Assembly: GCF_008727865.1 (NCBI RefSeq)
Contig: NZ_VTWU01000001.1
Location: 124,001 to 188,000, forward strand
Source of the DNA: Hymenobacter busanensis
GTDB lineage: Bacteria > Bacteroidota > Bacteroidia > Cytophagales > Hymenobacteraceae
Length of the DNA stretch: 64,000 bases
Reading direction: 5' to 3'
The notes below the pieces were generated by a model, which ran no database searches, was not told the origin of the DNA, and saw nothing but the letters and a program-made list of their open reading frames with translations. Both the position numbers and the translations under genes were made by a program. Below are positions 23,526 to 49,182 of this stretch, piece after piece (position 1 is the first letter of the stretch; each line of letters begins with the position of its first letter).

Positions 23526-23949
23526 GGGAAATGAGGTTTGGTGTGGATGAACTGACTTTTAACCCTACGGCACGCGTTTGGTTATTGGATTTGCCGCTTC
23601 ATCTTTTGCCCTTGCCGCTGGGCCACATTGAGAAAAGCAGAAAGTTTGCTTTCTGCCGATAGTACAAATAGCAGCCCCTACGGAAGAAAATCAGTAGGCC
23701 CCCTTCGAGCTGATTTACGTGAAAATCCAAGGCTTTTGCGACGCTGTGACGAGGGTTGGCAACGTTCCCGATAACGTTTGCGCAAAAAATAATATCCTAT
23801 TGGCGGGAATTGCCGGCTTTCCCCCAAACTTAACAAGGAGAAAAGTCCACTGTGGACAGCGGAGCTTCTTGGGAATGCGCAAATCAGCGGCATTGCCGGA
23901 ACCGCAGGTCGCCACGCCGGCAGCCGTTTCTGTTTGCCAGTTTCCCTCT
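23526..23949. other. Divergent intergenic region with a perfect hairpin palindrome
   Basis: This 424 bp gap separates the leftward fasciclin gene from the rightward GH28 gene. It holds the operator-like site at 23756-23785. It also contains a perfect inverted repeat GCAGAAAG-TTTG-CTTTCTGC at 23637-23656, and a weaker CCTAC/GTAGG pair near 23680. No full promoter consensus was found for either gene and no coding frame is convincing. Confidence 0.5.
23756..23785 (+). promoter_or_regulatory. LacI-type operator candidate, copy 1 (GH28 operon)
   Basis: GGCAACGTTCCCGATAACG and the following TTTGCGCAA recur nearly unchanged at 31698-31724 and 32974-33002. Each copy carries CGTT-N6-AACG symmetry with CG-centred AACGTT half sites, typical of LacI-family DNA targets. 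This copy lies about 165 bp upstream of the GH28 start. The overlapping AACGTTTG nearly matches a -7 box. The LacI gene at 31816-32850 is the likely partner. Confidence 0.72.
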
Positions 23950-25608
23950 ATGAAAACATCGTTTCCGATTGCCGCCCTCGCGCTGAGCAGCCTGCTGGCT
24001 ACCAGCGCCGCCACGGCCCAGACAGCAGCCAGCCTGCCCGTCGTCAAAACCACCAGCTTCCGCGCCGACACGGTTTCCATCGTCAAGCACGGGGCCGTGG
24101 CCGACGGCCTGACGCTCAATACCCAAGCCATCCAGAAAGCCATCGACGCCTGCAGCCAGCAGGGCGGGGGCGTGGTACTGGTGCCGCGCGGCCATTGGCG
24201 CACCGCCGGCATCGAAATGCGCTCCAACGTGAATCTGCACCTGGCCCAGGGTGCCTTGGTGCAGTTCACCGACGACCACAACGCCTACCACCTCATCAAA
24301 ACCAACTGGGAGGGTGTGGACGCCGTGCGCAACCAAGCCTTGATCTACGGCGACAACCTCGAAAACGTCGCCATTACCGGCAAGGGCATCTTCGACGGGG
24401 CCGGCAACACCTGGCGCCCGGTGAAGAAGAACAAGCTCACCGAAACCCAGTGGAAGCGCCAGCAGGAAAGCGGCGTGCTCAACGAAAAGAAAGACACTTG
24501 GTACCCCTCGGCCTCGGCCCTGAAAGGCACCACGATTCCCGAGGCCTTCTACCTCAAGCCCGGCAAAGAGGTGAAGGACTACGAGGACATCAAGGATTTC
24601 CTGCGGCCCGACATGCTGGTGCTGGCCCGCTCCAAGCGCATTCTGCTCGAGGGCGTGACCTTCCAGAACTCCCCGGCCTGGACCATTCACCCGCTCATGT
24701 CGGAAGACATTATCGTGCGGAACGTGAAGGCCCTGAACCCCGAGTACGGCCAGAACACCGATGCGCTGGACCTGGAATCGTGCCGTAACGGCATCGTGGA
24801 AGGCTGCACGTTTGACGTGGGCGACGACGCCATCTGCATCAAATCGGGCCGCGACGAGCAGGGCCGCAAGCGCGGCTTGCCCACCGAAAACTTCATCATC
24901 CGCAACACCACCGTGTACCACGCGCACGGCGGCTTCGTCATCGGGAGCGAAATGTCGGGCGGGGCGCGCAACATCTACGTGTCGAACGTCAACTTCATCG
25001 GCACCGACGTGGGCCTGCGCTTCAAAACCACGCGCGGCCGCGGCGGCGTGGTCGAGAACATCTTCATCGAGAACGTCGACATGAAAGACATTCCCGGCCA
25101 GGCCATCATTTTCGACATGTACTACATGGCCAAAGACCCCGTGCCGCTGGCCGGCGAGTCGACGGCGCCGCCCGTCATCGAAGCCAAGCCGCTGGACGAA
25201 GGCACGCCGCAGTTTCGCAAGATTCAGATCCGCAACGTGACCTGCAACGGCGCCGAAACCGCCATTATGGTGCGCGGCCTGCCGGAAATGCCCATCAAGG
25301 ACATCAGCATCGAAAACGCGGTGTTGCAGAGCAAAAAAGGGCTCGTGTGCATCGAAGCCAGCGGCATCAAGCTGAAGAACGTGACCCTGCTCTCGACGCA
25401 AACCCTGCCCGTGATGGAAGTGCAGAACAGCCAGAACATCACCCTCGACGGCATTCGCTACACGCCCGGTGCCGAGCTGCTGATGCGCGTGACCGGTGAC
25501 CGGTCTAAGGACGTGAAGCTGGCCAACACCGACACCAAGCAAGCCAAGAAAAGCATTGAGTTCGGCGACAAAGTGTCGAAGAAAACCGTAACCGTTTCGC
25601 AGCGCTAA
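23950..25608 (+). CDS. GH28 polygalacturonase-type glycoside hydrolase
   Basis: A 552 aa exported right-handed beta-helix enzyme. The signal peptide is MKTSFPIAALALSSLLATSAATAQ. GH28 catalytic motifs are present: NTDALDLES (NTD), GDDAICIKSG (catalytic DD), HGGFVIGSEMSGG (in place of the classical GHG) and LRFKTTRGRGG (the RIK equivalent). Numerous FQNSPAWTIHP and NVTC-type strand turns fit the beta-helix. It is probably an exo- or endo-acting galacturonan or rhamnogalacturonan hydrolase in the periplasm or outside the cell. The GH105 gene follows after 4 bp, so they form an operon behind operator copy 1. The ATG at 23950 is set by the signal peptide. Confidence 0.92.
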   Translation: MKTSFPIAALALSSLLATSAATAQTAASLPVVKTTSFRADTVSIVKHGAVADGLTLNTQAIQKAIDACSQQGGGVVLVPRGHWRTAGIEMRSNVNLHLAQGALVQFTDDHNAYHLIKTNWEGVDAVRNQALIYGDNLENVAITGKGIFDGAGNTWRPVKKNKLTETQWKRQQESGVLNEKKDTWYPSASALKGTTIPEAFYLKPGKEVKDYEDIKDFLRPDMLVLARSKRILLEGVTFQNSPAWTIHPLMSEDIIVRNVKALNPEYGQNTDALDLESCRNGIVEGCTFDVGDDAICIKSGRDEQGRKRGLPTENFIIRNTTVYHAHGGFVIGSEMSGGARNIYVSNVNFIGTDVGLRFKTTRGRGGVVENIFIENVDMKDIPGQAIIFDMYYMAKDPVPLAGESTAPPVIEAKPLDEGTPQFRKIQIRNVTCNGAETAIMVRGLPEMPIKDISIENAVLQSKKGLVCIEASGIKLKNVTLLSTQTLPVMEVQNSQNITLDGIRYTPGAELLMRVTGDRSKDVKLANTDTKQAKKSIEFGDKVSKKTVTVSQR

Positions 25609-25612
25609 GCCC

Positions 25613-27556
25613 GTGAAGAAAACCGCCAACCTCTCGCTCGGCCTGCTGCTGAGCTGCACGCTGCTGACGCCCGCCGCCCAGGCCCAAACGGCCCCCGCCG
25701 CCAAGCCCGTGTCGCAGCGCATGGCCGACGCCTTCATCAGCTGGCACCCCGATTCCATCCTCATCGGCAACCGCAAAACCGCCCGCTGGGACTACGAGCA
25801 GGGCCTGATGCTGAAGGCCCTGGAGCGGGTATGGCAGCGCACCGGCGACCCGAAATACTTCACCTACATTCAGAAGGACCTCGACCAGTTTGTGCGCGAA
25901 GACGGTTCGATTCGCACCTACAAGCTGGAAGACTACAACCTCGACAACCTGACCACCGGCCACGCGCTGCTCACGCTGGCGCAAACCTCGGTGCCGAAGC
26001 AGGAGAAATACGTGAAGGCCGCCCAGTACCTGCGCAAGCAGCTCGACGGGCAGCCGCGCACCAAGGAAGGCGGCTTCTGGCACAAGAAGGTGTACCCGAA
26101 CCAGATGTGGCTCGACGGCCTCTACATGGCCGAGCCCTTCTACGCCGAGTACAGCCAGGCCTTCAACCAGCCCGCCAGTTTCGACGACGTGGCCAAGCAG
26201 TTTGCCCTGATCGAAAAGCACCTCGTCGACCCGAAGACGGGCCTGATGTACCACGGCTACGACGAGAGCAAAGAGCAGAAGTGGGCCAACAAAACCACCG
26301 GCCAGTCGCCCAATTTCTGGGACCGGGGCATGGGCTGGTACGCCATGGCCCTGGTCGACGTGCTCGACTACTTCCCGCAAAACCACCCGCAGCGCCAGCA
26401 GCTGGTGAAAGACGTGCAGCGCCTCGCGCCGGTGCTGGCCAAGTACCAGGATGCCAAAACCGGCACGTGGTCGTTGGTGGTCGACCAAGCCGGGCGCAAG
26501 GGCAACTACGCCGAAGCCTCCGGCAGCAGCATGTTTGTGTACATGCTGGCCAAAGGCGTGCGCCTCGGCTACCTCGACAAGAAGTTCGGCGCCGTAGCCC
26601 AAAAAGGCTACGACGGCCTGCTGAAGCAGTTTGTAGCCACCGAAGCTGACGGCGGCCTGGCCTTCAACGGCACGGTAAGCGTGGGCGGCCTCGGCGGCAA
26701 CCCCTACCGCGACGGTAGCTTCGAGTATTACATCAGCGAGCCGCTGCGCAAAAACGACCTGAAAGGCGTCGGTCCGTTTATTCTGGCCAGCCTCGAAATG
26801 GAGCAGGCCAACGGCCCGCGCCCGGGCCAGGGCAAAACCGTGGGCCTCGACTACTACTTCAACAACGAGTACCGCAAGAGCGCCCTCACCGGCGCGCAGG
26901 AACGCTTCCACTACACCTGGGAGGACCGCATGCACTCGGGCTTCAACTTGTGGGGCAACCAGTTCCGCAGCCTCGGGGCCAGCACGGTGGCCATTCCCAC
27001 GGCGCCCACGGCCGCGTCGCTGAAGAACGTGAACGTGTACATCATCGTCGACCCCGACACGAAGAAGGAAACGACCAAGCCCAACTTCGTGCAGGCCGCC
27101 GACGTGAAAGCCGTTACCGAATGGGTGAAGGCCGGCGGCGTACTGATGCTCATGGCCAACGACACGGCCAACTGCGACATCAAGCACTTCAACCAGCTGG
27201 CCCAGGCCTTCGGCATCCGCTTCACCGACACCAGCCTGAACATGGTGAAAGGCAGTCAGTTTGAGGAGGGTAAGGTGGATTTGACAGGCGGCAACAACGT
27301 CTTCAAAACCGCCAAAACGGCCTACATCAAAGAGCTGTCGACGCTGGCGCTGACCGGCCCGGCCAAGCCGCTGGTAAAGCAGGGCGACCAAATCATCATT
27401 GCCACCGCCACCCTCGGCAAAGGCACGGTGTTGGCCGTGGGCGACCCGTGGCTCTACAACGAATACACCGACGGCCGCAAGATTCCGGCCGAGTTCGAAA
27501 ACTTCAAGGCCGGCAACGATCTGGCCACCTGGCTGCTGCAGCAAGCCGGCAACTAA
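25613..27556 (+). CDS. GH105 unsaturated uronyl hydrolase fused to a DUF4350-like domain
   Basis: A 647 aa exported enzyme with a GTG start 4 bp after the GH28 stop. The signal peptide is MKKTANLSLGLLLSCTLLTPAAQAQ. The alpha/alpha-barrel GH105 domain (about 30-375) contains MWLDGLYMAEPFYAEY, WDRGMGWYAMALVDVL with the catalytic Asp region, and GSSMFVYMLAKGVRLGYL. These enzymes hydrate unsaturated uronic acid residues left by pectate or rhamnogalacturonan lyases. A second domain (about 460-645) with VNVYIIVDPDT, ADVKAVTEWVKAGGVLMLMAND and KGTVLAVGDPWLYNEY looks like a GATase-fold DUF4350 module with no assigned role. Family GH105 is firm; the second domain assignment is moderate. Confidence 0.9.
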   Translation: MKKTANLSLGLLLSCTLLTPAAQAQTAPAAKPVSQRMADAFISWHPDSILIGNRKTARWDYEQGLMLKALERVWQRTGDPKYFTYIQKDLDQFVREDGSIRTYKLEDYNLDNLTTGHALLTLAQTSVPKQEKYVKAAQYLRKQLDGQPRTKEGGFWHKKVYPNQMWLDGLYMAEPFYAEYSQAFNQPASFDDVAKQFALIEKHLVDPKTGLMYHGYDESKEQKWANKTTGQSPNFWDRGMGWYAMALVDVLDYFPQNHPQRQQLVKDVQRLAPVLAKYQDAKTGTWSLVVDQAGRKGNYAEASGSSMFVYMLAKGVRLGYLDKKFGAVAQKGYDGLLKQFVATEADGGLAFNGTVSVGGLGGNPYRDGSFEYYISEPLRKNDLKGVGPFILASLEMEQANGPRPGQGKTVGLDYYFNNEYRKSALTGAQERFHYTWEDRMHSGFNLWGNQFRSLGASTVAIPTAPTAASLKNVNVYIIVDPDTKKETTKPNFVQAADVKAVTEWVKAGGVLMLMANDTANCDIKHFNQLAQAFGIRFTDTSLNMVKGSQFEEGKVDLTGGNNVFKTAKTAYIKELSTLALTGPAKPLVKQGDQIIIATATLGKGTVLAVGDPWLYNEYTDGRKIPAEFENFKAGNDLATWLLQQAGN

Positions 27557-27673
27557 ACAGCAGCGCCCGCCGGGCGGCCCGAAACTGTGGTGAGTGAAGT
27601 GCATGCTGCCGGATGAAACGGTAACGCGGGTACTGCTCGGGCCAAACGGCGGCGCTGCTATGTTCTTTCTGGC

Positions 27674-29308
27674 ATGTTCCGACAACTTTTGTGCGCGCTG
27701 CTGACCGCGCTGCCGCTGCTGGGGGCCGCGCAACCCACAGGCGCCCTTTCGAAAGTATGGGTGCCCGACCTGGGCAATGGCACCTATAAAAACCCGGTCC
27801 TCTACGCCGACTATTCCGACCCCGACGTGGTGCGCGTCGGGGCCGATTATTACCTGACCTCGTCTAGCTTCAACGCCGTGCCGGGTCTGCAGATTCTGCA
27901 TTCCCGCGACCTGGTCAACTGGAGCATCATCGGCGCGGTGTTCAGCAAACAGCCGCCGCTGGTGCGCTACGCCGAGCCCCAGCACGGCAACGGTGTGTGG
28001 GCCCCCGCCATTCGCTACCACAACAAGGAATTCTACATCTACTACCCCGACCCCGACCTCGGCATCTTCGTGACCAAAGCGAAGAACCCCGCCGGGCCAT
28101 GGTCGGCGCCGGTGTGCGTGAAGGAAGCCAAAGGGTGGATTGACCCCTGCCCGCTCTGGGACGAAGACGGCCGCGCCTACCTCGTGCACGGCTTTGCGGG
28201 CTCCCGCGCCGGTATCAAAACCATTCTGGCCATCAGCCCCATGAGCCCCGACGGCCTGCGCCTTACCGGCGACGACGCACTGGTGTTCGATGGCCACGCC
28301 AAGCACCCCACGCTGGAAGGCCCGAAGTTTTACAAGCGCAACGGCTACTACTACATTTTCGCGCCGGCCGGCGGCGTGCCCACGGGCTGGCAGTTGGTGC
28401 TGCGCTCCAAAAACGTGTATGGGCCCTACGAAGACCGCATCGTGATGGACCAGGGCAAAACCGCCGTCAACGGCCCGCATCAGGGCGCTTGGGTCGATAC
28501 GCCCGACGGCAAGGAGCACTGGTTTCTGCATTTCCAGGACCAGGGCCCTTACGGCCGCGTAGTGCACCTGCAGCCGATGGGCTGGAAAAACGACTGGCCC
28601 GTTATTGGCGCCGACCCCGACGGCGACGGCAAGGGCGAACCGGTGGCAACTTACCGCAAGCCAGCCGTGAAGGGAAAAGCCCAGCCGCTGACCACGCCAC
28701 CCACTTCCGATGAATTCAGCAGCACCCAGCTGGGCCTACAATGGCAGTGGCATGCCAATCCGCAGGATTACTGGGCTTTTCTGAACGGACCGCAGGGCTA
28801 TTTGCGGCTGTATTCGGTGCCGTTGCCCGAAGGCTTCAAAAACTACTGGCAGGTACCCAATTTGCTGCTGCAGAAGCTGCCCGCCGACGTATTCACGGCC
28901 ACCACGAAGCTCGCCTTCACGCCCCGACTGGAAGGCGAAAAGCTGGGCCTGATCGTGATGGGCCTCGATTACGCCTATTTGTCCGTAGCCAACCAGGGCG
29001 GCAAGCTGCTGCTCAGCCAGGCCGTGTGCCTGAATGCCGACAAGCTGAGCCCCGAAACCACCACGGCACCCGTGGAAGTGCCCGCCGCCCAAGCCGGTCA
29101 GCCGCTGTATTTGCGCGTGGCGGTGCGGGCCGGGGCCAAGTGCCAGTTCAGCTACAGCTTCGACGGCCAAGCGTTTCAGCCGCTGGGGGCCGAGTTTCAA
29201 GCCCGCGAAGGCAAATGGATTGGCGCGAAAGTTGGCTTGTTCTGCAGCCGCGCCGCCAAGTTCAACGACGCCGGTGCGGCCGACATCGACTGGTTCCGCA
29301 TCGAATAA
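27674..29308 (+). CDS. GH43-family glycoside hydrolase
   Basis: A 544 aa exported five-bladed propeller enzyme with a signal peptide (MFRQLLCALLTALPLLGAAQ). The catalytic-base Asp is in YADYSDPDVVRVG, the pKa-modulating Asp in WIDPCPLWDEDG and the acid Glu in LEGPKFYKRNGYYY. A C-terminal beta-sandwich (about 345-540, FSSTQLGLQWQWHANPQDYW) is typical of two-domain GH43 proteins. In a pectin locus it would remove arabinose, xylose or galactose side chains, but the subfamily was not determined. It lies 117 bp after the GH105 gene with no clear terminator between. Confidence 0.88.
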   Translation: MFRQLLCALLTALPLLGAAQPTGALSKVWVPDLGNGTYKNPVLYADYSDPDVVRVGADYYLTSSSFNAVPGLQILHSRDLVNWSIIGAVFSKQPPLVRYAEPQHGNGVWAPAIRYHNKEFYIYYPDPDLGIFVTKAKNPAGPWSAPVCVKEAKGWIDPCPLWDEDGRAYLVHGFAGSRAGIKTILAISPMSPDGLRLTGDDALVFDGHAKHPTLEGPKFYKRNGYYYIFAPAGGVPTGWQLVLRSKNVYGPYEDRIVMDQGKTAVNGPHQGAWVDTPDGKEHWFLHFQDQGPYGRVVHLQPMGWKNDWPVIGADPDGDGKGEPVATYRKPAVKGKAQPLTTPPTSDEFSSTQLGLQWQWHANPQDYWAFLNGPQGYLRLYSVPLPEGFKNYWQVPNLLLQKLPADVFTATTKLAFTPRLEGEKLGLIVMGLDYAYLSVANQGGKLLLSQAVCLNADKLSPETTTAPVEVPAAQAGQPLYLRVAVRAGAKCQFSYSFDGQAFQPLGAEFQAREGKWIGAKVGLFCSRAAKFNDAGAADIDWFRIE

Positions 29309-29343
29309 GGCGCCGGACTGTTTTTCTCCACACGTTTTTGAGT

Positions 29344-30453
29344 ATGTCTATACCTGCCCGTGCTGCCGCCCGCAGCTCCACTGCTGCCTTGTCGTTGGTG
29401 GCTGGCTGCGCCCTGATTACCAGCTTTTCCTGCGTCAGCGAACAGAAAAGCACCGTGCCCCAAATGCCCAGTGTTGCGGCTACCGCGACGCCCGTTGCTA
29501 CTGCCGGGGTCGTGGGGTTTGCCAGCGTGGGTAGCAGTACCACCGGCGGCGCGGCGGGCCGCACCGTTACGGCCACCACCCTGGCCGAACTGACCACCTA
29601 TGCCACCAGCGCCGAGCCGCTCGTCATTCGCATCGGCGGCACCATTTCGGGCGGGAGCGAAGGCGCTTCCATTCGCGTGAAGTCAAACAAAACCTTATTG
29701 GGTGTAGGCGCTACGGGCTTTCTGGAAGGCGTGGGGCTGAATCTGGTGGATGCGCAGAATGTCATCGTGCAGAACCTGAAGTTCACGATGTCGACGGTAA
29801 CGAAGACCTACATTAACAGCGAGAAACGGGCGCAGGTGGCCACCAACGACGGCGACTGCGTGACCATCCAGGGCAACAGCCAAAACATCTGGGTCGACCA
29901 CTGCGAGTTTTTCAACCTCGACCCCGCCACCCAACCCAACCAGGACCTCTACGACGGCTTGGTGGACGCCAAGGACAACAGCGCCAACATCACCATCTCG
30001 TGGAGCTACTTCCACGACCACCACAAGTGCCACCTCGTTGGCTCGTCCGACAAAGAGGCGCAGAACCACGACCGGCGCATCACCTTTCACCACAACTACT
30101 ACCGCAACATCAAGGAGCGCGTGCCCAGCTTCCGTTTCGGCACCGGCCACGTGTTCAACAACTACTACCAGCACGTGCGCGGCTCGGGCGTGAATGCGCG
30201 CATGGGTGCCTGCCTGCGCGTCGAGCAGAATTACTTCGAAGACGTGCGCGACCCGGTGGTAACCAAAAACAGTCCCGCATCGGGTTTCTGGGACGTCCTT
30301 GACAACGTGTATCAAAACTGCTCAGGCAGCCAGCCCACCACCGCCAGCTGCCCCACGCCGCTGCAGCTGCCCTACGACTACAAGTCTGCCCTCACGCCCG
30401 CTGCCGACGTGAAAACCGTGGTGATGCAGGGCGCCGGCGTGGGCAAGCTGTAA
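29344..30453 (+). CDS. PL1-family pectate lyase, probable lipoprotein
   Basis: A 369 aa parallel beta-helix polysaccharide lyase cleaving polygalacturonate by beta-elimination with calcium. The N-terminus contains a lipobox-like LVAGC (C22), suggesting a membrane-anchored lipoprotein. Motifs are NVIVQNLKF, DGDCVTIQGNSQNIWVDHCEF (calcium-binding Asp and the vWiDH motif), DGLVDAKDNSANITISWSYF and the catalytic-Arg segment RVPSFRFGTGHVFNNYY. It follows GH43 by 35 bp and ends the enzyme operon, with a strong terminator about 60 bp downstream. The ATG at 29344 was chosen to begin the signal; the longer frame upstream shadows GH43. Confidence 0.92.
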   Translation: MSIPARAAARSSTAALSLVAGCALITSFSCVSEQKSTVPQMPSVAATATPVATAGVVGFASVGSSTTGGAAGRTVTATTLAELTTYATSAEPLVIRIGGTISGGSEGASIRVKSNKTLLGVGATGFLEGVGLNLVDAQNVIVQNLKFTMSTVTKTYINSEKRAQVATNDGDCVTIQGNSQNIWVDHCEFFNLDPATQPNQDLYDGLVDAKDNSANITISWSYFHDHHKCHLVGSSDKEAQNHDRRITFHHNYYRNIKERVPSFRFGTGHVFNNYYQHVRGSGVNARMGACLRVEQNYFEDVRDPVVTKNSPASGFWDVLDNVYQNCSGSQPTTASCPTPLQLPYDYKSALTPAADVKTVVMQGAGVGKL

Positions 30454-30513
30454 GCTAGCAGCAGCAGTGCCGCCGAAAAGCGGAGCGGCAAACGCCACTC
30501 ACCCGCCTGAAAA

Positions 30514-30550
30514 ACTAAAAGGGCCGCTGGAATTACCAGCGGCCCTCTTT
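30514..30550. terminator. Bidirectional rho-independent terminator
   Basis: The perfect 10 bp stem GGGCCGCTGG / CCAGCGGCCC with an AATTA loop is flanked by AAAA on the left and TCTTTAT on the right. It serves both the rightward PL1 operon and the convergent T9SS protein gene. Confidence 0.85.
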
Positions 30551-30575
30551 ATGTGAGCTGACTTGTTAGGAACGG

Positions 30576-31565
30576 TTATTCTTTCACGATTTTCGACACG
30601 CTGCGCTGACGGTCGTTGGTGTATTCCACCAGGTAGATGCCGTTGGTGAGCGAACCGATGTTCAGGTTGGTACGCTCGGCGTTGGGCAGCGCTACAAACG
30701 AAGCCACTTTGCGGCCGTCGGCGGCGTACACGGCAATGGTGGCCGCAGCCTTGCTCACCGGGTGCGACACCACTACGTTGTTTTGCGTGGGGTTCGGGTA
30801 GATGCCCAGGGCCACTTTGTCAAGCGGCTTGGTGGCCGAAACCACGGCCTGACGGCTCTTCACGATGACGTTCTTGAGTAGGGCGAAACGGGCCGCCGCG
30901 CCGCTGCTGCTGCAGCTGAAGTACACCCGAATGGTGAGGGTTTGGCCGGCATTGAGCGTGACGCCCGTAGCACCGTTCAGAGCCAGACGGTAGGTGTTCG
31001 TGTTAGGAGCGCCCGTCGAAACCTGAGCCAGAGCTACCGGACCAGCAAAACCACCCGTTACCACGCCGCTGAAAACGCCGTTGGGGCCTTTGCCACCGGT
31101 TACGTCGGTCGAGTCAGCCGTGAAGCTGGAGCGCGAGTACACCACACCCATGTTGGTGCCGCTAGCCGTGCCCAGGAAACCAGCCGTCAGAATAACGGAG
31201 TCGGCACGTACCGTAGAACCGGCCGCGGCCGTCACGGTGAATTGCTCGTAGAACGTGCGCTTGAGCGAGCTGCCGGTGCCGGGAGGCGTGGCGTTGGAAC
31301 TCCAGCCGGTGCCCACGGCTTGCGGGGCAATGGCTTGGCCCACGAGGTTGGAGTAGGCCGGTACCGTAGCGGTAGCCGAACCATCGGACACCACAAATTT
31401 GCGCAGGGTAGGCGCGCTGGCCGTAACACCCGAGCGCACAGCGGCGCTGTCTTGGTTGTTACGCGTCATGGGCCACTGCTGAAACACTTGGGTTTGGGCT
31501 TGTGCCGCCAGACCCAGGCTCGACAACAGGGCCACTGCAACGGCCGAGAGTACGTGTTTTTTCAT
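30576..31565 (-). CDS. T9SS-secreted protein of unknown function
   Basis: A 329 aa secreted protein. The signal peptide is MKKHVLSAVAVALLSSLGLAAQAQ. A beta-rich Ser/Thr/Gly/Val body (about 25-235) follows, with FQQWPMTRNNQDSAAVRSG and ALNGATGVTLNAGQTLTIRVYFSC. It ends in a type IX sorting domain (about 250-329: LGIYPNPTQNNVVVSH ... GIYLVEYTNDRQRSVSKIVKE). No catalytic motif is seen. From memory, similar body sequences accompany T9SS pectate lyases in related genera, which would make this a stand-alone pectin-associated module. Operator copy 2 lies 133 bp upstream, predicting control with the pectin genes. The start is set by the signal peptide. Confidence 0.82.
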   Translation of the reverse strand: MKKHVLSAVAVALLSSLGLAAQAQTQVFQQWPMTRNNQDSAAVRSGVTASAPTLRKFVVSDGSATATVPAYSNLVGQAIAPQAVGTGWSSNATPPGTGSSLKRTFYEQFTVTAAAGSTVRADSVILTAGFLGTASGTNMGVVYSRSSFTADSTDVTGGKGPNGVFSGVVTGGFAGPVALAQVSTGAPNTNTYRLALNGATGVTLNAGQTLTIRVYFSCSSSGAAARFALLKNVIVKSRQAVVSATKPLDKVALGIYPNPTQNNVVVSHPVSKAAATIAVYAADGRKVASFVALPNAERTNLNIGSLTNGIYLVEYTNDRQRSVSKIVKE

Positions 31566-31697
31566 AACGACAGAAAAGAAGAGTGGGGTAGGAGGTGGAA
31601 TCAGAAAAACACTGACACCCATCGAACAGGACGGGCGAATGGTTGTACAATTTTCACGGCTTAGCGCGCAAAACGAAGGAGCCGCACGGGTTTATTT

Positions 31698-31724
31698 CCG
31701 CAAACGTTATCGGGAACGTTGCCA
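31698..31724 (-). promoter_or_regulatory. LacI-type operator candidate, copy 2 (T9SS protein gene)
   Basis: Read leftwards this is the same site as copy 1, TGGCAACGTTCCCGATAACG then TTTGCGG and AAATAAAC. It lies between the end of lacI and the T9SS protein start, in the orientation of that gene. The identical core in three separate gaps argues against chance. Confidence 0.72.
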
Positions 31725-31815
31725 GTCGGTGCTCGGCGCGGGCGCAAAGCGCTGAAATAGTTTAAAAAGCTGAATTCGCCGCTACTGCTGTTTGGTGAGC
31801 AGGCGCCGTTGGGCG

Positions 31816-32850
31816 TTAGGGAACTGGCGTAACGGACGTCGCGCGCGACGACTCGCGCACCACCAGTTCCGTTGGCACCTTCACCGTACCGACCGGGGCG
31901 GCGCGGTGCTTCCGTTCGATCAGTTCGATGAGGCGCTCGGCGGCCAGCTGCCCGATTTCCTGGGCCGGCTGCACCACCGTGCTCAGCGAGGGCGACAACA
32001 GATCGGCCACGTGCAGGTTGGTAAAACCAATCAGCGACACTTCATCGGGAATGGCCACTTTGCGCTGCCGCAGCGCCGCCAAACAGCCCAGGGCCAGCCG
32101 GTCGGAGGCGGTGAAGAAAGCGTCGGGCCGTGGGTCGAGGGCCATCAGTTCGTCCACCATCTGCCCGGCCTCGTCGGGGCCGAAGGTGCCGTAGCGCACC
32201 AGGTTCTCGTCGAAGGGAACGCCGTACTTCTCCAGCGCGGCGCGGTAGCCGGCCAGGCGCTCCTGCGTGATGCTGATCCAGGGCGGAATGGTGAGGTGCG
32301 CGATGCGGCGCCGGCCGGCCTGCAGCAGGTGCTCGGTAGCGGCAAAGGCCCCGCCGAAATTGTCGGCCACCACTTGGGTCACATCCAGCTCATCCGACAC
32401 ACGGTCGAAGAGCACCAGCGGCAGGTTTTTCTGCTGCAGCTCCTTGAGGTGCGACACGTCGGAAGTTTCGCTGGAAAGCGAAATCAGCAGCCCGTCGACC
32501 TTGCGGGCCACGGCCTGCTGCACGTTGGCCACTTCCCGCTCGTACGACTCGTGGGTCTGAAAAATGATGACGTGGTAGCCGCGGTTGTAGGCAATGGCCT
32601 CGATGCCGTTGATGGCCTGCGAGAAATAGTAGTTGGCAATCTGCGGCACAATCACGCCGATGGCCCGCGAGCTGCTGCCTTTCAAGCTCAGCGCAATCGG
32701 GTTAGGGCGGTAGTTGAGCCGCTCGGCGTATTCCATCACCAGCCGTTTGGTCTCGGGGTTGATTTCATAGCTGCCCCGCAACGCCCGCGACACCGTGGAG
32801 GTCGACAAATTGAGGGCGCGGGCAATGTCTTTGATGGTGATGGTATCCAA
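31816..32850 (-). CDS. LacI-family transcriptional regulator of the pectin locus
   Basis: A 344 aa regulator. The LacI helix-turn-helix reads ITIKDIARALNLSTSTVSRALRGSYEINPETKRLV, with the hinge helix near LSLKGSSSRAIGVIVPQ. A periplasmic-binding-protein-like sensor domain (about 60-335) follows, including FFTASDRLALGCLAALRQRKVAIPDEVSLIGFTN. The start is TTG at 32850, because the HTH begins six codons later and no ATG lies nearby. It is divergent from kduD and copies of an operator-like repeat occur in three surrounding gaps. The inducer is not known; KDG or galacturonate would be sensible. It is probably a repressor, as usual for the family. Confidence 0.92.
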   Translation of the reverse strand: MDTITIKDIARALNLSTSTVSRALRGSYEINPETKRLVMEYAERLNYRPNPIALSLKGSSSRAIGVIVPQIANYYFSQAINGIEAIAYNRGYHVIIFQTHESYEREVANVQQAVARKVDGLLISLSSETSDVSHLKELQQKNLPLVLFDRVSDELDVTQVVADNFGGAFAATEHLLQAGRRRIAHLTIPPWISITQERLAGYRAALEKYGVPFDENLVRYGTFGPDEAGQMVDELMALDPRPDAFFTASDRLALGCLAALRQRKVAIPDEVSLIGFTNLHVADLLSPSLSTVVQPAQEIGQLAAERLIELIERKHRAAPVGTVKVPTELVVRESSRATSVTPVP

Positions 32851-32973
32851 GAGCGAAAACGGTTAAATGCAATTATTGAGACTGGCGGAAGGAGCAATTT
32901 ATGCAGCCTCAAAAAGGAAGGTAAGGCGTAGGGTCGAAAGAAGAATTGGCTGAAATCAGCGCGCTGCCCGAAA

Positions 32974-33002
32974 TGGCAACGTTCCCGATAACGATTGCGC
33001 AA
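32974..33002 (+). promoter_or_regulatory. LacI-type operator candidate, copy 3 (lacI/kduD divergent region)
   Basis: TGGCAACGTTCCCGATAACG then ATTGCGCAA matches copies 1 and 2 except for one base (ATTG for TTTG). The shared identity with copy 2 continues into AATAAAC. It lies 124 bp from the lacI start and 131 bp from the kduD start, so it can control both, including autoregulation. Confidence 0.73.
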
Positions 33003-40325: not shown

Positions 40326-42422
40326 ATGAAAAGAATGAAGTGGTTTGAGAAGGTGACTCTTCTGCTCACGGTGGGGATTTGGGGAAATGCTTCCTCCGTG
40401 AATGCACAGCAGATGAGTGTAGCGGCGGATGGTTCGGGAAATTTCCGGACCATCCAAGCCGCTATAGCCAGCCTGCCCGACCACGCCGCGCAGCAGCGCG
40501 TCATTACCATCAAGAAAGGCACCTACCGCGAGCAAGTCTCCATCGACGGCAAGGACCACATTACCCTGCGGGGCGCCAGCGAGAAAGACGTCATCATCAC
40601 GTTTGCCCGCGCCCGCGACGCCTACCGTTGCGAAGGCAACACCGACGATTGGGGCGTGGCCACGCTTAACCTGCGCAACGCCCCCGACATCACGCTGGAA
40701 AACCTGACGGTCATCAACAGCTACGGGTTCGACGCCACCGGCGACGTAACCATCGACTGCCCCACCGACGCCAGCAAGAAGAAAACCATCAGCAAAACCG
40801 GCCACCAGATGGCCCTGCGCACCTTGCCGGGCACCACCCGGCTGGTGGTGCGCCACTGCACGTTCCGCGCCCTCGGCGGCGACACCGTCAGCCCCTGGGA
40901 TACGGAAGTGGGCATGTACTACTTCCAGGATTGCACCCTGGAAGGCGGCGTCGATTTTTACTGCCCGCGCGGCTGGGCCTACGCCGAAAACTGCCGCTTC
41001 ATCTGCCACAGCACCTCGGCCGCCATCTGGCACGACGGTTCCGGCAACGCAGACTCCAAAACCGTACTCAAGAACTGCTCTTTCGAGGGTGACCCCGGCT
41101 TCAAGCTGGGGCGCTACCACCGCGAGTCGCAGTTTTACCTCGTCGGCTGCAAGTTCAGCAAAGACATGGCCGACGCCGATATTTACCACGCGCCCTCGGG
41201 CCCCGGCACGCCCAAGTGGGGCCGCCGCGTGTACTACAGCAACTGCAAGCGGCAGGGCGGCGACTTCGCGTGGTTTAAAGACAACTTAGCCAGCGCACCC
41301 GGTGCGCCCAAGCTCGCTAGTCTCACGGCCGACTGGACCTTCGGCGGCCGCTGGTTCCCGGTATCGGGCCAGCCCGCCACCGTGCGCCTGGCTTCCATCG
41401 ACCCGACCAACACGCACGCCACGGCGCCCAAGCCTGAAGCCGGTATCGATAGCGTAGCCGAGAAAATGCTGGTGTACCAGCGTGCCGTGGGTGGCTGGCC
41501 CAAGGCGGTAGGGGAGGCGAAGGTGGACTACAAGCGCCCGATGAGTGCCCAACTGCGGGCCGCTACCCTGGCCGATGCCAAGCGCATCGACGCCACCATC
41601 GACAACAACGCCACCACCCGCGAAATCCGTCACCTGACAACGGCTTTCAAGCAAACCCAGAACGCGGCCTATAAGCAGGCTGCCGAGCGCGGCGTGCGCT
41701 ACCTGCTGGCCATGCAGTACGCCAACGGCGGTTTTCCGCAGTACTACCCCGACCGCAGCAACTACCGCCACCAGATTACCTACAACGACAACGCCATGGT
41801 GCAGGTGCTGCGGGTGCTGCGCAGCGTAGCCCAGGGCGAAGGCGACTTTGCCCTGTTCGACCCGGCCCTTAAGCCTCTGGCCCAGGACGCGGTGACGCGC
41901 GGCATCGACTGCATTCTGAAAACCCAGTACGTGCAAAACGGCAAGCTCACCGCCTGGTGCGCGCAGCACGACGAGAAAACGCTGCTGCCAGCCAAGGCCC
42001 GCAACTTCGAGCTGGCCTCGCTGAGCGGCGCCGAGACGGTGGGCATCGTGGAGTTTCTGCTGGGCGTCGACAACCCCTCGCCGGAGGTGAAGAAGGCCAT
42101 CGGCAGCGCCGTGGCTTGGCTGGAAACGGTGAAGATGCCCGGCTTGGCTTTGCAGGAAATTACCGACCCCAAACAGCCTACAGGACGGGACAGGATAGTT
42201 GTGCCTACGGCCGGTGCCACCTTGTGGGCCCGCTTCTACGAACTCGACACCAACCGCCCCATCTACGTGGGCCGCGACAGTCAGGCGCGCTATTCCCTGG
42301 CCGAAATTGAGAATGAACGACGGGCCAACTACGCCTACGCCGGAACCTGGCCCGCCAAACTGTTAGCCACGGAGTACCCACAGTGGCAAAAAAAGTGGGA
42401 GAACGGAAAGAGCGGATTATAA
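40326..42422 (+). CDS. Bifunctional pectinesterase (CE8) and pectate lyase (PL10) fusion
   Basis: A 698 aa exported protein with a signal peptide (MKRMKWFEKVTLLLTVGIWG, cleavage near VNAQ). The CE8 half (about 30-350) has GSGNFRTIQAAI, the GHQMALR segment, the catalytic-Asp motif GGVDFYCPRG and LGR. These differ from the common GxVDFIFG and LGRpW forms, so the esterase may be divergent. The PL10 half (about 375-698) shows YQRAVGGWPKAVGE, IDNNATTREI, YLLAMQYANGGFPQYYPDR, YNDNAM and WCAQHD, typical of PL10 active sites. Fusion would demethylate and cleave pectin in one protein. It lies between kdgF and uxaB, separated by 22 bp and 1 bp. Confidence 0.9.
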   Translation: MKRMKWFEKVTLLLTVGIWGNASSVNAQQMSVAADGSGNFRTIQAAIASLPDHAAQQRVITIKKGTYREQVSIDGKDHITLRGASEKDVIITFARARDAYRCEGNTDDWGVATLNLRNAPDITLENLTVINSYGFDATGDVTIDCPTDASKKKTISKTGHQMALRTLPGTTRLVVRHCTFRALGGDTVSPWDTEVGMYYFQDCTLEGGVDFYCPRGWAYAENCRFICHSTSAAIWHDGSGNADSKTVLKNCSFEGDPGFKLGRYHRESQFYLVGCKFSKDMADADIYHAPSGPGTPKWGRRVYYSNCKRQGGDFAWFKDNLASAPGAPKLASLTADWTFGGRWFPVSGQPATVRLASIDPTNTHATAPKPEAGIDSVAEKMLVYQRAVGGWPKAVGEAKVDYKRPMSAQLRAATLADAKRIDATIDNNATTREIRHLTTAFKQTQNAAYKQAAERGVRYLLAMQYANGGFPQYYPDRSNYRHQITYNDNAMVQVLRVLRSVAQGEGDFALFDPALKPLAQDAVTRGIDCILKTQYVQNGKLTAWCAQHDEKTLLPAKARNFELASLSGAETVGIVEFLLGVDNPSPEVKKAIGSAVAWLETVKMPGLALQEITDPKQPTGRDRIVVPTAGATLWARFYELDTNRPIYVGRDSQARYSLAEIENERRANYAYAGTWPAKLLATEYPQWQKKWENGKSGL

Positions 42423-42423
42423 A

Positions 42424-43956
42424 ATGACCACCATGAGCTACTTGTCTCGCCCCCTGGCCCTTGCCGGCGCCACCACCGCAGTTGCCCTGCCCACCGAGCA
42501 CCTGCTGGCCCTGCCCGAAAAAGTGCTGCAATTTGGAACCGGCGTGCTGTTACGCGGCCTGCCCGACTACTTCATCGACAAGGCCAACCGCCAGGGCGTG
42601 TTCAACGGCCGCATCGTGGTGGTGAAGTCAACCGACGGCGGCGACATCAACGCCTTCGACCGGCAGGACGGCCTCTACACGCTGTGCGTGCGCGGAGTGG
42701 AAGGCGAGCAAACCGTCGAAGAAAACATCGTGTGCTCGGCCATCAGCCGGGTGCTGTCGGCCAAAAGCCAGTGGGCCGAGGTGCTGAAATTCGCCGCCAG
42801 CCCCGAGTTGCAGGTGGTTATTTCCAACACCACCGAAGTGGGCATTCAGCTCACTGCCGACGACATCAAGCAAAACCCGCCCCAGTCGTTTCCCGGCAAG
42901 CTCCTGGCCGTGCTCTACGCCCGCTACCAGGCGTTTGGCGGCGACAAATCCAAGGGCCTCGTGATTGTGCCCACCGAACTCGTGCCCGAAAACGGCACCA
43001 AGCTCGAAGGCATTCTGCTGGAGCTGGCCCACCGCAACGGCCTCGATTCGGAGTTCATCGACTGGCTGGAAACGGCCAACCAGTGCTGCAACTCGCTCGT
43101 GGACCGTATCGTGCCCGGCCGCCCCGACTCGGGTACGCTCAACGCCCTACACGAACAGCTGGGCTACGAAGACGACCTGCTCACCATTTCGGAGTCGTTC
43201 CGCCTGTGGGCCATTCAGGGCGACGAACGGGTGCGCGAAGTGCTGTCGTTCAGCCAGGTAGACGAAGGCGTGGTGATTCAGCCCGACATCAACGAGTTCC
43301 GGGAGCTGAAGCTGCGCCTGCTTAACGGCACGCACACGCTGAGCTGCGGCCTGGCTTTCCTGAGCGGCTTTGAAACCGTGCGCAGCGCCATGGAAGACGA
43401 CGGCATGGCCGCGTTCATCAGCCACCTGATGCTCGACGACCTGCTGCCCGGCATTCCATACCCCGTGGATGCGGCGCTGGCCAAGCGGTTCGGCGGCCAG
43501 GTGCTCGACCGGTTCCGCAACCCCTACATCGACCACCGCTGGCTGGCCATTACCATGAACTTCTCGACCAAGATGCAGATGCGCAACGTGCCCACGCTGC
43601 TGCATTATTACGAGCAGCGCGGGAATGTGCCGCAGTACTTCGCCTTGGGCTTTGCTGCCTACTTACTGTTCATGCGCGGCGTGCAGCAGGAGGAAGACGG
43701 CGTGTGGTACGGCCACACCGGCAGCGAATTGTACCCGATTCAGGACGACAAGGCCGGCTATTTCGCCGACCTCTGGAGCCGCCTCGCTCCCGAAGAACTC
43801 ACCCGCACCGTGTTGCAGAGCCACGCGCTGTGGGGCCACGACTTGTCGCACCTGCCGGGCTTTACGGCCCAGGTAACCACGTACCTGCAGCAAATGCTGG
43901 CCCAGGGCGTCCGGGCGACGCTGGCCAAGCACATCAGCAGCCAAGTACCCGCTTAA
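42424..43956 (+). CDS. uxaB: Tagaturonate reductase
   Basis: A 510 aa mannitol-dehydrogenase-superfamily enzyme reducing tagaturonate to altronate with NADH. Motifs are VLQFGTGVLLRGLPDYFIDKA (nucleotide-binding N-terminus), NTTEVGI, DRIVPGRP, LRLLNGTHT and the conserved catalytic Lys region STKMQMRNVPTLLHYY. Co-location with uxaA and uxaC distinguishes it from mannonate or mannitol enzymes. Its ATG begins 1 bp after the stop of the CE8-PL10 gene; a second ATG four codons in is also possible. Confidence 0.93.
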   Translation: MTTMSYLSRPLALAGATTAVALPTEHLLALPEKVLQFGTGVLLRGLPDYFIDKANRQGVFNGRIVVVKSTDGGDINAFDRQDGLYTLCVRGVEGEQTVEENIVCSAISRVLSAKSQWAEVLKFAASPELQVVISNTTEVGIQLTADDIKQNPPQSFPGKLLAVLYARYQAFGGDKSKGLVIVPTELVPENGTKLEGILLELAHRNGLDSEFIDWLETANQCCNSLVDRIVPGRPDSGTLNALHEQLGYEDDLLTISESFRLWAIQGDERVREVLSFSQVDEGVVIQPDINEFRELKLRLLNGTHTLSCGLAFLSGFETVRSAMEDDGMAAFISHLMLDDLLPGIPYPVDAALAKRFGGQVLDRFRNPYIDHRWLAITMNFSTKMQMRNVPTLLHYYEQRGNVPQYFALGFAAYLLFMRGVQQEEDGVWYGHTGSELYPIQDDKAGYFADLWSRLAPEELTRTVLQSHALWGHDLSHLPGFTAQVTTYLQQMLAQGVRATLAKHISSQVPA

Positions 43957-44035
43957 ACAAGGACGACCGCCCCGGGCCTCTATCAGTCGTCTCAGCAAGC
44001 TAACAGCCACCCGCTAATAGCCCTCAGTTCAACTC

Positions 44036-45688
44036 ATGAAACACTTAGTAGCCAAAATCCACCCCCACGACAACGTACTGGTAGCCCTGCAGGACCTGCC
44101 GGCCGGCACCACCATTCCGTGGGAGGATAGCGCGATAAAGACGGTAGCAGCCATTCCGGCCAAGCACAAGCTGGCGCTGCAGGACTTTCAGGTCGGCGAC
44201 TCGGTGACGATGTACGGCGTGCTGGTGGGCAAAATCCGCGAAGCCATTCCGCTGGGCGGGTTGCTCACCACTTCGAACATCAAGCACGCCACCAACAGCT
44301 ACGGGGAGCACGGCATGCACCGCGCCGCTTGGCCCGTGCCGAACGTGGAAAAGTGGCAGGACCGTACTTTCATGGGCTTTCACCGCCCCGACGGCAAAGT
44401 GGGTACGGCCAACTACTGGCTGGTGATTCCGCTGGTGTTCTGCGAAAACCGCAACATCCAGGTGCTGGAAGAAGCTCTGGTGACGGACCTCGGCTACGGC
44501 CGCCGCAAGAGCTACCAGCCCCAGACGCAAGAGCTGATTCAGCTGATGCAGGCCGGCAAGACGGTGGAGGAAATCCTGCAGACCGACCTGCAGACCTCGC
44601 TCGACGGCAGCCAGAAGCCCAAGCTGTTCCCGAACGTGGACGGCGTACGGTTCCTGACCCACGAGGGCGGCTGCGGCGGCATCCGGCAGGACGCGCAGAC
44701 ACTCTGCGGCCTGCTCGCCGGCTACATTACCCACCCGAACGTGGCCGGCGCTACGGTGCTGAGCCTGGGCTGCCAGAACGCGCAGGTGTCGATGCTGCAG
44801 GACGAAATCAACAAGCGCAGCCCGCAGTTTCTCAAGCCGCTCTACATCCTGGAGCAGCAGAAAATCGGCACCGAGGAGGCGCTCATCAGCACCGCCCTGC
44901 GCCAGACCTTCGCCGGGCTGATGCAGGCCAACGCCCAGCACCGCCAGCCGGCCCCGCTCAGCAAGCTGTGCATCGGGCTGGAGTGCGGTGGCTCGGATGG
45001 CTTCTCGGGCATCTCGGCCAACCCGGCCGTGGGCCACGTGTCCGACATGCTGGTGGCTTTGGGCGGCTCGGTGATTCTGGCCGAATTCCCGGAGCTGAAC
45101 GGCGTGGAGCAGGAGCTGGTGGACCGCTCCATCGACAAGGAAACCGCTGAGCGCTTCAGCTCGCTGATGAAGGCCTACAGCGACTCCGCCGTGGCCGTCG
45201 GCTCGGGCTTCGATATGAACCCCTCGCCCGGCAACATCCGCGACGGGTTGCTGACCGACGCCATGAAATCGGCCGGCGCGGCCCGTAAGGGCGGTTCGTC
45301 GCCGGTAGTAGCCGTGCTCGATTACCCCGAAATGGTGACCAAGCCCGGACTGAATCTGCTCTGCACCCCCGGCAACGACGTGGAATCGACCACGGCGGAG
45401 GTGGGCTCGGGCGCCAACGTGGTGCTCTTCACCACCGGCCTGGGCACGCCCACCGGCAACCCCATTGCCCCGGTCGTGAAGATTGCCACCAACACCCCGC
45501 TGGCCAAGCGCATGCCCGACATCATCGACATCAACACCGGCACCGTCATCGACGGCGAGGAAACCATCGAGCAGGCCGGGGAGCGGATTCTGGACTACGT
45601 CATCCGCGTGGCCAGCGGCGAGGAAGTAGCCGCTGTGCGCCACGGGCAGACCGACTTTATTCCCTGGAAACGCGGCGTGAGCCTGTAA
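44036..45688 (+). CDS. uxaA: Altronate dehydratase
   Basis: A 550 aa enzyme converting altronate to KDG. The N-terminal SAF domain (about 1-95) contains HPHDNVLVALQDLPAGT and the conserved HGMHRAAW-like link region. The main domain includes GFHRPDGKVGTANYWLVIP, THEGGCGG, LSLGCQNAQVS, GLECGGSDGFSGI and the C-terminal GNPIAPVVKIATNTPLAKRMPDIIDINTG. Full length for UxaA of the fused type. It lies 79 bp after uxaB with no terminator seen; a repeat element follows. Confidence 0.94.
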   Translation: MKHLVAKIHPHDNVLVALQDLPAGTTIPWEDSAIKTVAAIPAKHKLALQDFQVGDSVTMYGVLVGKIREAIPLGGLLTTSNIKHATNSYGEHGMHRAAWPVPNVEKWQDRTFMGFHRPDGKVGTANYWLVIPLVFCENRNIQVLEEALVTDLGYGRRKSYQPQTQELIQLMQAGKTVEEILQTDLQTSLDGSQKPKLFPNVDGVRFLTHEGGCGGIRQDAQTLCGLLAGYITHPNVAGATVLSLGCQNAQVSMLQDEINKRSPQFLKPLYILEQQKIGTEEALISTALRQTFAGLMQANAQHRQPAPLSKLCIGLECGGSDGFSGISANPAVGHVSDMLVALGGSVILAEFPELNGVEQELVDRSIDKETAERFSSLMKAYSDSAVAVGSGFDMNPSPGNIRDGLLTDAMKSAGAARKGGSSPVVAVLDYPEMVTKPGLNLLCTPGNDVESTTAEVGSGANVVLFTTGLGTPTGNPIAPVVKIATNTPLAKRMPDIIDINTGTVIDGEETIEQAGERILDYVIRVASGEEVAAVRHGQTDFIPWKRGVSL

Positions 45689-45701
45689 ACTGATTCCCCT
45701 T

Positions 45702-45818
45702 CTGTCATCCTGAGGCGCAGCCGAAGGACCTTGTTACTGAAGAACGGCTGACATCGGATAGAGACTATCTGACGTGAGAAGGTCCTTCGCTCTGCGTACG
45801 CTAGATATAAGATGACAG
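45702..45818. repeat. Inverted-repeat element in the uxaA-uxaC gap
   Basis: A 117 bp unit with identical inverted ends CTGTCATC (45702-45709) and GATGACAG (45811-45818). Inner arms also pair: CGAAGGACCTT (45722-45732) against AAGGTCCTTCG (45779-45789). A 46 bp centre contains a small GATAG-AGA-CTATC hairpin. There is no coding capacity. It is the only such element in the window and fills almost the whole 150 bp gap. Similar GTCATCCTGAG...GAAGGACCTT sequences recur in Hymenobacter-like genomes from memory. Confidence 0.75.
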
Positions 45819-45838
45819 GATTTCAACCTTTCCCCACC

Positions 45839-47278
45839 ATGAAGCCTTTCCTCGGTCCCGACTTCCTGCTGCACACCGAAACTGCCCGCACGCTCTACCA
45901 CGAGCACGCGAAGCAGATGCCCATCATCGACTACCACAACCACCTACTGCCCGACCAGATTGCCGAAGACAAGCAGTTCGACAACCTGACGCAGATCTGG
46001 CTCTACGGCGACCATTACAAGTGGCGCGCCATGCGCACCAACGGCATCGATGAGCGCTACATCACCGGCGACGCGTCGGACTGGGAGAAGTTTGAGAAGT
46101 GGGCCGAAACCGTGCCCCAGACCCTGCGCAACCCGCTCTACCACTGGACGCACCTGGAGCTGCAGCGCTACTTCGGCGTGACGGAGCTGCTCAACAAGGA
46201 GTCGGCCCGCCGCATCTACGACCACTGCTCGGCCCTGCTGCGCACGTCTGAGTACTCGGTGCGCAACCTGCTCAAGAAGATGAACGTGCAGACGCTCTGC
46301 ACCACCGACGACCCCTCGGATTCGCTGGAGCACCACCGCGCCATTGCCGCCGACCCCTTCGGCGTGCAGGTGCTGCCCACCTTCCGGGCCGACAAAGCCA
46401 TGTCGCCGGAAGACCCTACGGCCTACAACGCCTACCTCGACAAGCTGGGCGCTTCGGCGGCCGTCGACGTTCTGAACTACCAAGACCTGCTGACGGCCCT
46501 GCGCGTGCGCCACGACTACTTCGCCGCTTTGGGCTGCCGCTTGTCGGACCACGGCCTGGAGCAGATTTACGCCGCCGACTACACCGACGCTGACATCACC
46601 CGCATCTTTGCCAAGGTGCGCGGCGGCGAGCAGCTGGAGCAGCAGGAAATCCTGCAGTTTAAGTCGGCCATGCTGGTGTTCCTGGCGGAACTGGACTGGG
46701 AGAAGGGCTGGACCCAGCAGTTCCACCTCGGTGCGCTGCGCAACAACAACGCCCGCATGCTGCGCCAGCTCGGCCCCGACACTGGCTGGGACTCCATCGG
46801 CGACTTCCAGCAAGCCCCGGCCCTGGCCAAGTTCCTCGACCGCCTCGACACCCAGGACAAGCTGGCCAAGACCATCCTCTACAACCTGAACCCCTCCGAC
46901 AACGAGCTGTTTGCCACCATGATCGGCAACTTCCAGGACGGGTCGGTGGCCGGCAAGATGCAGTTCGGCTCGGGCTGGTGGTTCCTCGACCAGAAAGACG
47001 GCATGGAGCGGCAGATCAACGCGCTGTCGAACATGGGCCTGCTGAGCCGCTTCGTGGGCATGCTCACCGACTCGCGCAGCTTCCTCTCGTACCCGCGCCA
47101 CGAGTACTTCCGCCGCATCCTCTGCAACATGCTCGGCAACGACGTGGAAAACGGCGAGCTGCCCGCGGATCTGGAGCTGCTGGGCCAGATGGTCGAGAAC
47201 ATCTGCTACGGCAACGCCAACGAGTACTTCGGCTTCCAGCCGGTGGCCGCGGCCACTTCGGTGGCGGCAACCGTGTAG
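45839..47278 (+). CDS. uxaC: Glucuronate/galacturonate isomerase
   Basis: A 479 aa TIM-barrel isomerase converting galacturonate to tagaturonate, and glucuronate to fructuronate. Family landmarks are MPIIDYHNHLLPDQIAED (metal-site His pair), KWRAMRTNGI, LCTTDDPSDSLEHH, FHLGALRNNN and FVGMLTDSRSFLSYPRHEYFRRI. The ATG at 45839 (MKPFLGPDFLL) is preferred; the frame extends nine codons upstream into the repeat element. It starts the branch that ends in UxaB and UxaA. Confidence 0.95.
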   Translation: MKPFLGPDFLLHTETARTLYHEHAKQMPIIDYHNHLLPDQIAEDKQFDNLTQIWLYGDHYKWRAMRTNGIDERYITGDASDWEKFEKWAETVPQTLRNPLYHWTHLELQRYFGVTELLNKESARRIYDHCSALLRTSEYSVRNLLKKMNVQTLCTTDDPSDSLEHHRAIAADPFGVQVLPTFRADKAMSPEDPTAYNAYLDKLGASAAVDVLNYQDLLTALRVRHDYFAALGCRLSDHGLEQIYAADYTDADITRIFAKVRGGEQLEQQEILQFKSAMLVFLAELDWEKGWTQQFHLGALRNNNARMLRQLGPDTGWDSIGDFQQAPALAKFLDRLDTQDKLAKTILYNLNPSDNELFATMIGNFQDGSVAGKMQFGSGWWFLDQKDGMERQINALSNMGLLSRFVGMLTDSRSFLSYPRHEYFRRILCNMLGNDVENGELPADLELLGQMVENICYGNANEYFGFQPVAAATSVAATV

Positions 47279-47457
47279 GAGCAGGTGGGTGCAAGCAACG
47301 ACATTCCGTAGCTTGCTCTACCGCTGCCCGGCATCCGCCATCCGCCATTGACGAGCCGAACCGCGGCCGTCAATTCGCCTTCGAGCTTTGTTAAGCCGCC
47401 CGCCGGCTGATTTTTCAACGACCCTTTTGCCTGCGGCCAGTTGCGCAGGCCTTTCCT

Positions 47458-48474: not shown

Positions 48475-48499
48475 CCTGTCTTTCTCATTCTCCTTCGCC

Positions 48500-49177: not shown

Positions 49178-49182
49178 CCGCC

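Follow-up and report, generated by a model that had tools for sequence, protein, structure and literature searches.

Control of pectin use in Bacteroidetes

Control of uronate use by LacI-family regulators has been described in Bacteroides, where KdgR (BT0487), UxaR (BT0824) and UxuR govern the use of galacturonate, glucuronate and 2-keto-3-deoxygluconate (KDG), according to the available parts of two papers (PMC3878776, PMC4052901). Here, a regulator of the same family is considered in the same phylum. Its gene lies among three copies of a near-palindromic repeat in a pectin locus of Hymenobacter busanensis, within a 64-kb stretch of DNA (contig NZ_VTWU01000001.1, positions 124,001 to 188,000) that is called the window below. 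In the same parts of those papers, the Bacteroides regulators serve monosaccharide pathways, whereas here a single motif is shared by kduD, importers and secreted pectinases at scattered places; the two are likened by description only.

In Bacteroides, pectin polysaccharide loci have instead been placed under hybrid two-component systems (HTCS), as the same excerpts state (PMC3878776, PMC4052901). In B. thetaiotaomicron, an HTCS does the job considered here, controlling a pectin/rhamnogalacturonan locus that includes a distant operon, and HTCS motifs are given as direct repeats with a spacer (PMC3878776, in part); here, in contrast, the candidate pair is a LacI protein and a near-palindrome. 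For LacI-type proteins, sites upstream of a promoter have been read as activation for AraQ and MalR1 of Bifidobacterium breve, and also for CcpA, in a paper that mentions helix-face phasing (PMC6882875, in part). The AraQ/MalR1 sites are stated to lie at no particular distance; here, however, distance and orientation seem to stay the same across 45-65 dissimilar promoters. Among the matches listed from the open-access literature, no description of a LacI pectin operator of Hymenobacter or Bacteroidetes was found.

The reading favored here is that the adjacent LacI protein controls a pectin regulon and activates it from an upstream operator; taken whole, this seems probable from the sequence comparisons that follow. 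That this protein is the regulator of the regulon is very probable; that it activates, given that it is the regulator, we put at about two thirds. A more pointed statement is given slightly better than an even chance. This is that the protein is a rigid-geometry activator of a scattered Cytophagales pectin regulon, whose three-part module (a 24-bp operator, a one-sided A-tract and a TAnnTT-like -7 element) is recognizable in the bare DNA and points to new pectin genes, among them a family of secreted domains and, in certain species, a GntR gene beside a rhamnose isomerase homolog. If activation is true, then a LacI-type protein would do the work of the HTCS of gut Bacteroides, which sense in the periplasm. 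From the motif, pectin genes of Hymenobacter and related bacteria can be sought by a rule at the level of sequence, and unannotated secreted proteins gain a suggested role in pectin use.

Predicted operators in the window and in the genome

The 19-mer GGCAACGTTCCCGATAACG occurs in three exact copies in the window, at 23758-23776 (+), 31705-31723 (-) and 32975-32993 (+), where 0.06 are expected by chance. None of 100 shuffled windows held three or more copies, and no further place was found in the window at up to 3 mismatches. The original prediction had counted three copies and no others, placing them in the gaps before the GH28 gene, before a protein with a type IX secretion system (T9SS) tail, and between lacI and kduD; the count and the gaps are as it described, but its coordinates were off by 2, 7 and 1 bases. 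Common to the three copies are TGGCAACGTTCCCGATAACG, one variable base, TTGCG, a second variable base, and AAA.

The 19-mer is the core of a 24-bp near-palindrome with CG at its center and an A-rich tract adjoining on one side only. The predicted 24-mer operators are operator A at 23758..23781 (+), upstream of the GH28-GH88/105-GH43-PL1 cluster and with the A-rich tract after it; operator B at 31700..31723 (-), upstream of the T9SS-tailed protein P0003; and operator C at 32975..32998 (+), in the gap between the divergent lacI and kduD, pointing to kduD. In the consensus of aligned sites, 7 of the 12 base pairs are complementary by our own count. Their 24 nt exceed the 16-22 nt given for 1251 of 1303 transcription factors in the available part of PMC4052901. 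An arrangement of tandem 12-bp sites centered on AACGTT, each half resembling a small LacI site, was rejected, because the pattern of conservation mirrors itself around the central CG of the 24-mer.

Across the 4.89-Mb genome, the 24-mer is found at 8 places at up to 3 mismatches, 5 of them outside the window, and its reversed control at none; at the same threshold the 19-mer is found at 12 places and its reversed control at 2. Four other 19-mer places (L016, L017, L020 and L021) overlap predicted open reading frames (ORFs), are absent from the 24-mer matches, and were set aside. Six of the eight 24-mer sites precede genes or runs of genes of pectin-enzyme or kduD families. The remaining two stand before a SusC/SusD pair (L014) and before P0003, which would be pectin-related by association with the operator only. 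The predicted regulon is larger than originally supposed; the scan gave these eight sites, and not the many copies beside unrelated genes that the original prediction had taken as a sign against itself.

Co-occurrence of sites and regulator

In the genus, six of 8 genomes have a lacI ortholog and hold 5-12 sites each; the two without it hold none. Among 150 family genomes, at least one site is present in 53 of the 54 with a lacI ortholog and in 7 of the 96 without (52/53 versus 8/97 if G020, here counted as lacI-bearing though its gene reads in several frames, is moved). Outside the family, in a sample of the order (118 genomes, sites counted at up to 2 mismatches), a site occurs in 7 of 11 genomes with lacI versus 1 of 98 without. 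The regulon, as predicted from these sites, is present in Hymenobacter, Spirosoma, Dyadobacter and other Cytophagales.

In G089, the sole lacI-bearing family genome that lacks a site, a degenerate copy adjoins lacI. G035 has in place of a close ortholog a 52-53% identical homolog, with a similar palindrome adjoining it, and in G040, also without a close lacI ortholog, the site is followed by a GDSL fragment. The genomes of loci L206 and L207 have no lacI and keep a pectin cluster; there, GH88 reads in several frames and the sites have altered a position at which 135 of 135 other sites read C, as decay would predict.

The regulator, P0001, is 344 amino acids long (31816..32850, -, from the TTG start as listed). 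That a LacI-type gene sits among the copies, as had been claimed, is confirmed by its matches to the helix-turn-helix domain PF00356 (E 8e-13) and the periplasmic-binding-protein-like sensor domain PF13377 (E 7e-37). Its best solved relatives are CcpA and PurR, and the closest relatives of the gene, at up to 86% identity, are mostly from Hymenobacter. Of 80 ortholog loci, 67 have a site 61-193 bp upstream of lacI. As regards possible autoregulation, such a site, where present, points away from lacI and, in the window, toward kduD.

The recognition helix of P0001 reads TVSR, with T-S before it. In the available part of PMC2978694, an arginine at AA-20 is paired with G at NT-6, and a hinge leucine with the central CG. 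Over an alignment of 135 sites (8 from this genome, 60 sampled from relatives, 67 upstream of lacI), G stands at NT-6 in 134, C on the opposite arm in 135 and CG at the center in 135, an agreement partly built in by site selection. The scan pattern left another, inner position open; there, the operator has C in 54 of 57 cases where the helix is TS, and A or G in 10 of 10 where it is VS. Operator variants, that is, covary with the predicted recognition helix. The candidate pectin regulon of the original prediction thus gains support from the genome sites, from co-occurrence with lacI and from this covariation, and is well supported at the level of sequence.

Predicted promoter geometry

Downstream of the operator, 62-65 of the 135 sites are less than 45% identical; removal of the kduD promoters leaves 45. 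These dissimilar promoters share AAATAAA at +3 to +9 after the operator and a block A47, A48, T51, T52. In the 45 promoters, columns +47, +48 and +51 hold 0.61, 0.73 and 1.07 bits, and the best of 300 shuffles 0.37; at a 40% identity cut (31 promoters), +48 and +51 stand above the best shuffle (0.49). The A-tract (at least 5 of 7 bases) follows the operator in 35 of 45 and lies on the opposite side in 1 of 45. In a held-out test, a -7 matrix made from half of the promoters finds its place within 2 bp in 51%, compared with 6% for uniform placement and 10% for a control block.

Promoters of Flavobacterium johnsoniae carry TAHHTTTG between -12 and -5 and begin transcription 4-5 nt further on (PMC6847099, in part). 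Placing T-12 at +46 puts the operator center near -69.5 from the predicted transcription start, and the operator end about 58 bp upstream of it. In the GH28 promoter, the alignment and its fixed spacing assign the putative -7 element CAAACTTA to 23825..23832 (+). Fixed spacing and orientation upstream of a core promoter hold for the set and, singly, for about half of the held-out promoters, the starts being predicted ones. A predicted Bacteroidetes -7-like element at a fixed distance from the operator is an addition to the original prediction, and so is the activation that this suggests, which had not been proposed.

Activation is favored because an activator depends on one spacing and one orientation this far upstream; positions of this kind are the ones that class I activators use. 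A center near -69.5 suggests the place of an activator and would be unusual for a repressor. We infer that the adjacent LacI-family regulator uses the three repeats as its operators; as a dimer, it would bind the 24-bp near-palindrome centered on CG. In the sites surveyed, the operator points to its gene, and after it come AAATAAA (around -55 to -49), a weakly marked region at -33 and the -7-like TAAnnTT. The inducer would be a pectin breakdown product, be it KDG, 5-keto-4-deoxyuronate (DKI), galacturonate or an oligogalacturonide. The ligand-bound protein would then activate by contacting RNA polymerase from about -69.5, with the A-tract serving the polymerase alpha subunit. The fixed spacing makes the choice between activator and repressor directly testable.

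Alternative explanations

The same regulator and regulon could, of course, operate by classical repression, with LacI blocking the promoters of the pectin genes and being released from them by a sugar acid derived from pectin. Repression is the usual mode of the LacI family, whose members are mostly described as repressors, and this counts against activation here. The available part of PMC4052901 likewise speaks mainly of repressors, and the LacI-type KdgR and UxaR of B. thetaiotaomicron control uronate use (PMC3878776, in part). A repressor, however, would be expected over the promoter and with looser spacing, while the column statistics place these operators at one distance and in one orientation, well before the predicted start and with a one-sided A-tract; repression is rather unlikely. 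Less likely by far is that another regulator inherited with the pectin locus, such as the GntR-type regulator or a LacI paralog, binds the sites. The genome has three LacI paralogs, and GntR and LacI occur in the same 6 of 8 genus genomes, which means that the genus data alone cannot separate them. The family sample does, with sites in 22 of 23 genomes that have LacI without GntR and in 1 of 10 that have GntR without LacI, a split on which GntR was rejected as the binder. The genome's own GntR gene (C7:539150, L216; 90% identical to its operator-bearing counterpart) has no operator upstream, and the scan of 20 ORFs from 23.7 to 53.6 kb matched no other regulator family. The LacI paralogs are 36-37% identical, have other residues in the recognition helix and are less likely binders; the operator variant, moreover, tracks the helix of LacI itself. 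Three exact copies within 9.3 kb might also be a chance or non-regulatory repeat. This deserves almost no credence given the chance expectation, the conservation of the sites across genera in otherwise dissimilar promoters, and their general absence where lacI is absent.

Other observations weigh against the favored reading of activation by LacI from a fixed upstream operator. At the 40% cut, column +47 (0.44) falls below the best shuffle (0.49). The -7-like element is not the best match in about half of the held-out promoters, its inferred position varies by about 1 bp from one promoter to the next, and simply counting TAnnT[TC] starts gives no sharp peak, where the column and held-out tests do. 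The sites were chosen by similarity, which builds in part of the column invariance, and many sampled sites are orthologous or in shared clusters (four in G016), so that their counts are not independent. The covariation of operator with TS or VS, counted with no tree, may represent one single event. Of the 80 lacI loci, 13 have no operator beside lacI (within 700 bp upstream). G107, without lacI, keeps an intact site before pectinesterases, which has no simple fit, and the uronate genes of the window (42424-50547) have no operator of their own.

Genes downstream of the predicted operators

Outside the window, the sites in this genome stand before a GDSL-GDSL-pectinesterase-pectinesterase run (L013), the SusC/SusD pair (L014), a pectin methylesterase carrying a P0003-like domain (L015), a protein without a Pfam match that matches the solved pectate lyase 9buj at 2.8e-56 (L018), and a PL1-CBM77 protein with a T9SS tail (L019). 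The ORFs first assigned at L014 (1444 amino acids), L015 (799) and L018 (776) look like antisense artefacts and were replaced. Genes past the L014 pair (a PAS-domain protein, on the opposite strand) add no pectin support. The L018 protein (7779-9290, about 500 amino acids) is recognized as pectate lyase-like through 9buj and a weak PelZ match, with no Pfam match at 1e-5.

In relatives, 60 unlinked sites (separated from lacI by more than about 50 kb or lying on a different contig) were chosen by hand from 22 genomes, out of the listed part of 241 family sites. No gene was predicted at one of them, L107, which was left out. Since ORFs abound in GC-rich DNA, it is weak evidence by itself that 59 of the 60 have one within 500 bp on the expected strand; what counts is the gene families. 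Of the 59 downstream genes, 41 encode pectin-type enzymes: 19 L018-type pectate lyases and 8 pectinesterases (together one cluster of 27), 7 GDSL and 7 PL1 proteins. The rest are 6 GntR, 5 SusC, 4 MocA and 3 unknown T9SS proteins. Pfam tallies agree with the gene clusters wherever Pfam has a model; the GDSL esterases, SusC, MocA, GntR and unknown T9SS proteins are called pectin-related by association. Among 39 control genes, matches to the reference set at 1e-5 were one SusD and one GH43 only, and Pfam gave single GH127, GH43 and SusD genes among the 25 of 35 families listed. This contrast is rough, as control starts were allowed up to 3 kb away, L182 had no gene, and some control ORFs look antisense.

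A GntR-type regulator gene with an operator occurs in 6 of the 60 sampled loci; in L106 (409-3051), the gene after it encodes a homolog of L-rhamnose isomerase that scores under the curated cut-off. At L136 and L137 (G016:C1:2856295 and 2856409), divergent pectin genes do not share an operator but have one each, with starts 114 bp apart.

The pectin locus of the window

The surroundings of the operators form a pectin locus that runs from GH28 through uronate catabolism genes. The GH28 polygalacturonase-type enzyme (23950..25608, +; PF00295, E 3e-29) probably starts at ATG 23950, which a signal-peptide-like stretch follows, and not at GTG 23719 of the listed ORF. Family matches place after it a GH88/GH105-type hydrolase (25613-27556, +), a GH43 (27674-29308, +) and a PL1 pectate lyase (within ORF 28741-30453, +). 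Beyond lacI lie kduD (33133-33903, +) and kduI (33958-34788, +), a pair matched above cut-off by TIGR01832 / NF002091. These are followed, again by family match, by SusC (34825-38154, +), SusD (38176-39957, +) and a Pec_lyase protein (PF09492) with a pectinesterase domain (40326..42422, +). The uronate catabolism genes (42424..50547, +) comprise tagaturonate reductase, altronate dehydratase-type, uronate isomerase, KDG kinase-type, 2-keto-3-deoxy-6-phosphogluconate (KDPG) aldolase and major facilitator superfamily (MFS) transporter genes.

The secreted protein P0003 (30576..31565, -; its start at ATG 31565 is a prediction) is matched in Pfam at its T9SS tail only, its body giving no Pfam match; a fold prediction (mean pLDDT, the predicted local distance difference test, 73) and fold search gave no confident match beyond that tail. 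At another place in the genome, a pectin methylesterase carries a fused domain with which the body of P0003 shares 53% identity. The P0003-like secreted domain, which starts WPMTRNNQDS in the window, is found either by itself with a T9SS tail or fused to a pectin methylesterase, and several times near these operators (window 30576-31565, L015 1-1100, L206 2011-2970).

The locus ends in the window with a MocA-type oxidoreductase gene (52202-53554) that has no operator of its own; in relatives, MocA-type proteins 66-71% identical to it (L116, L121, L123, L128) do carry the operator.

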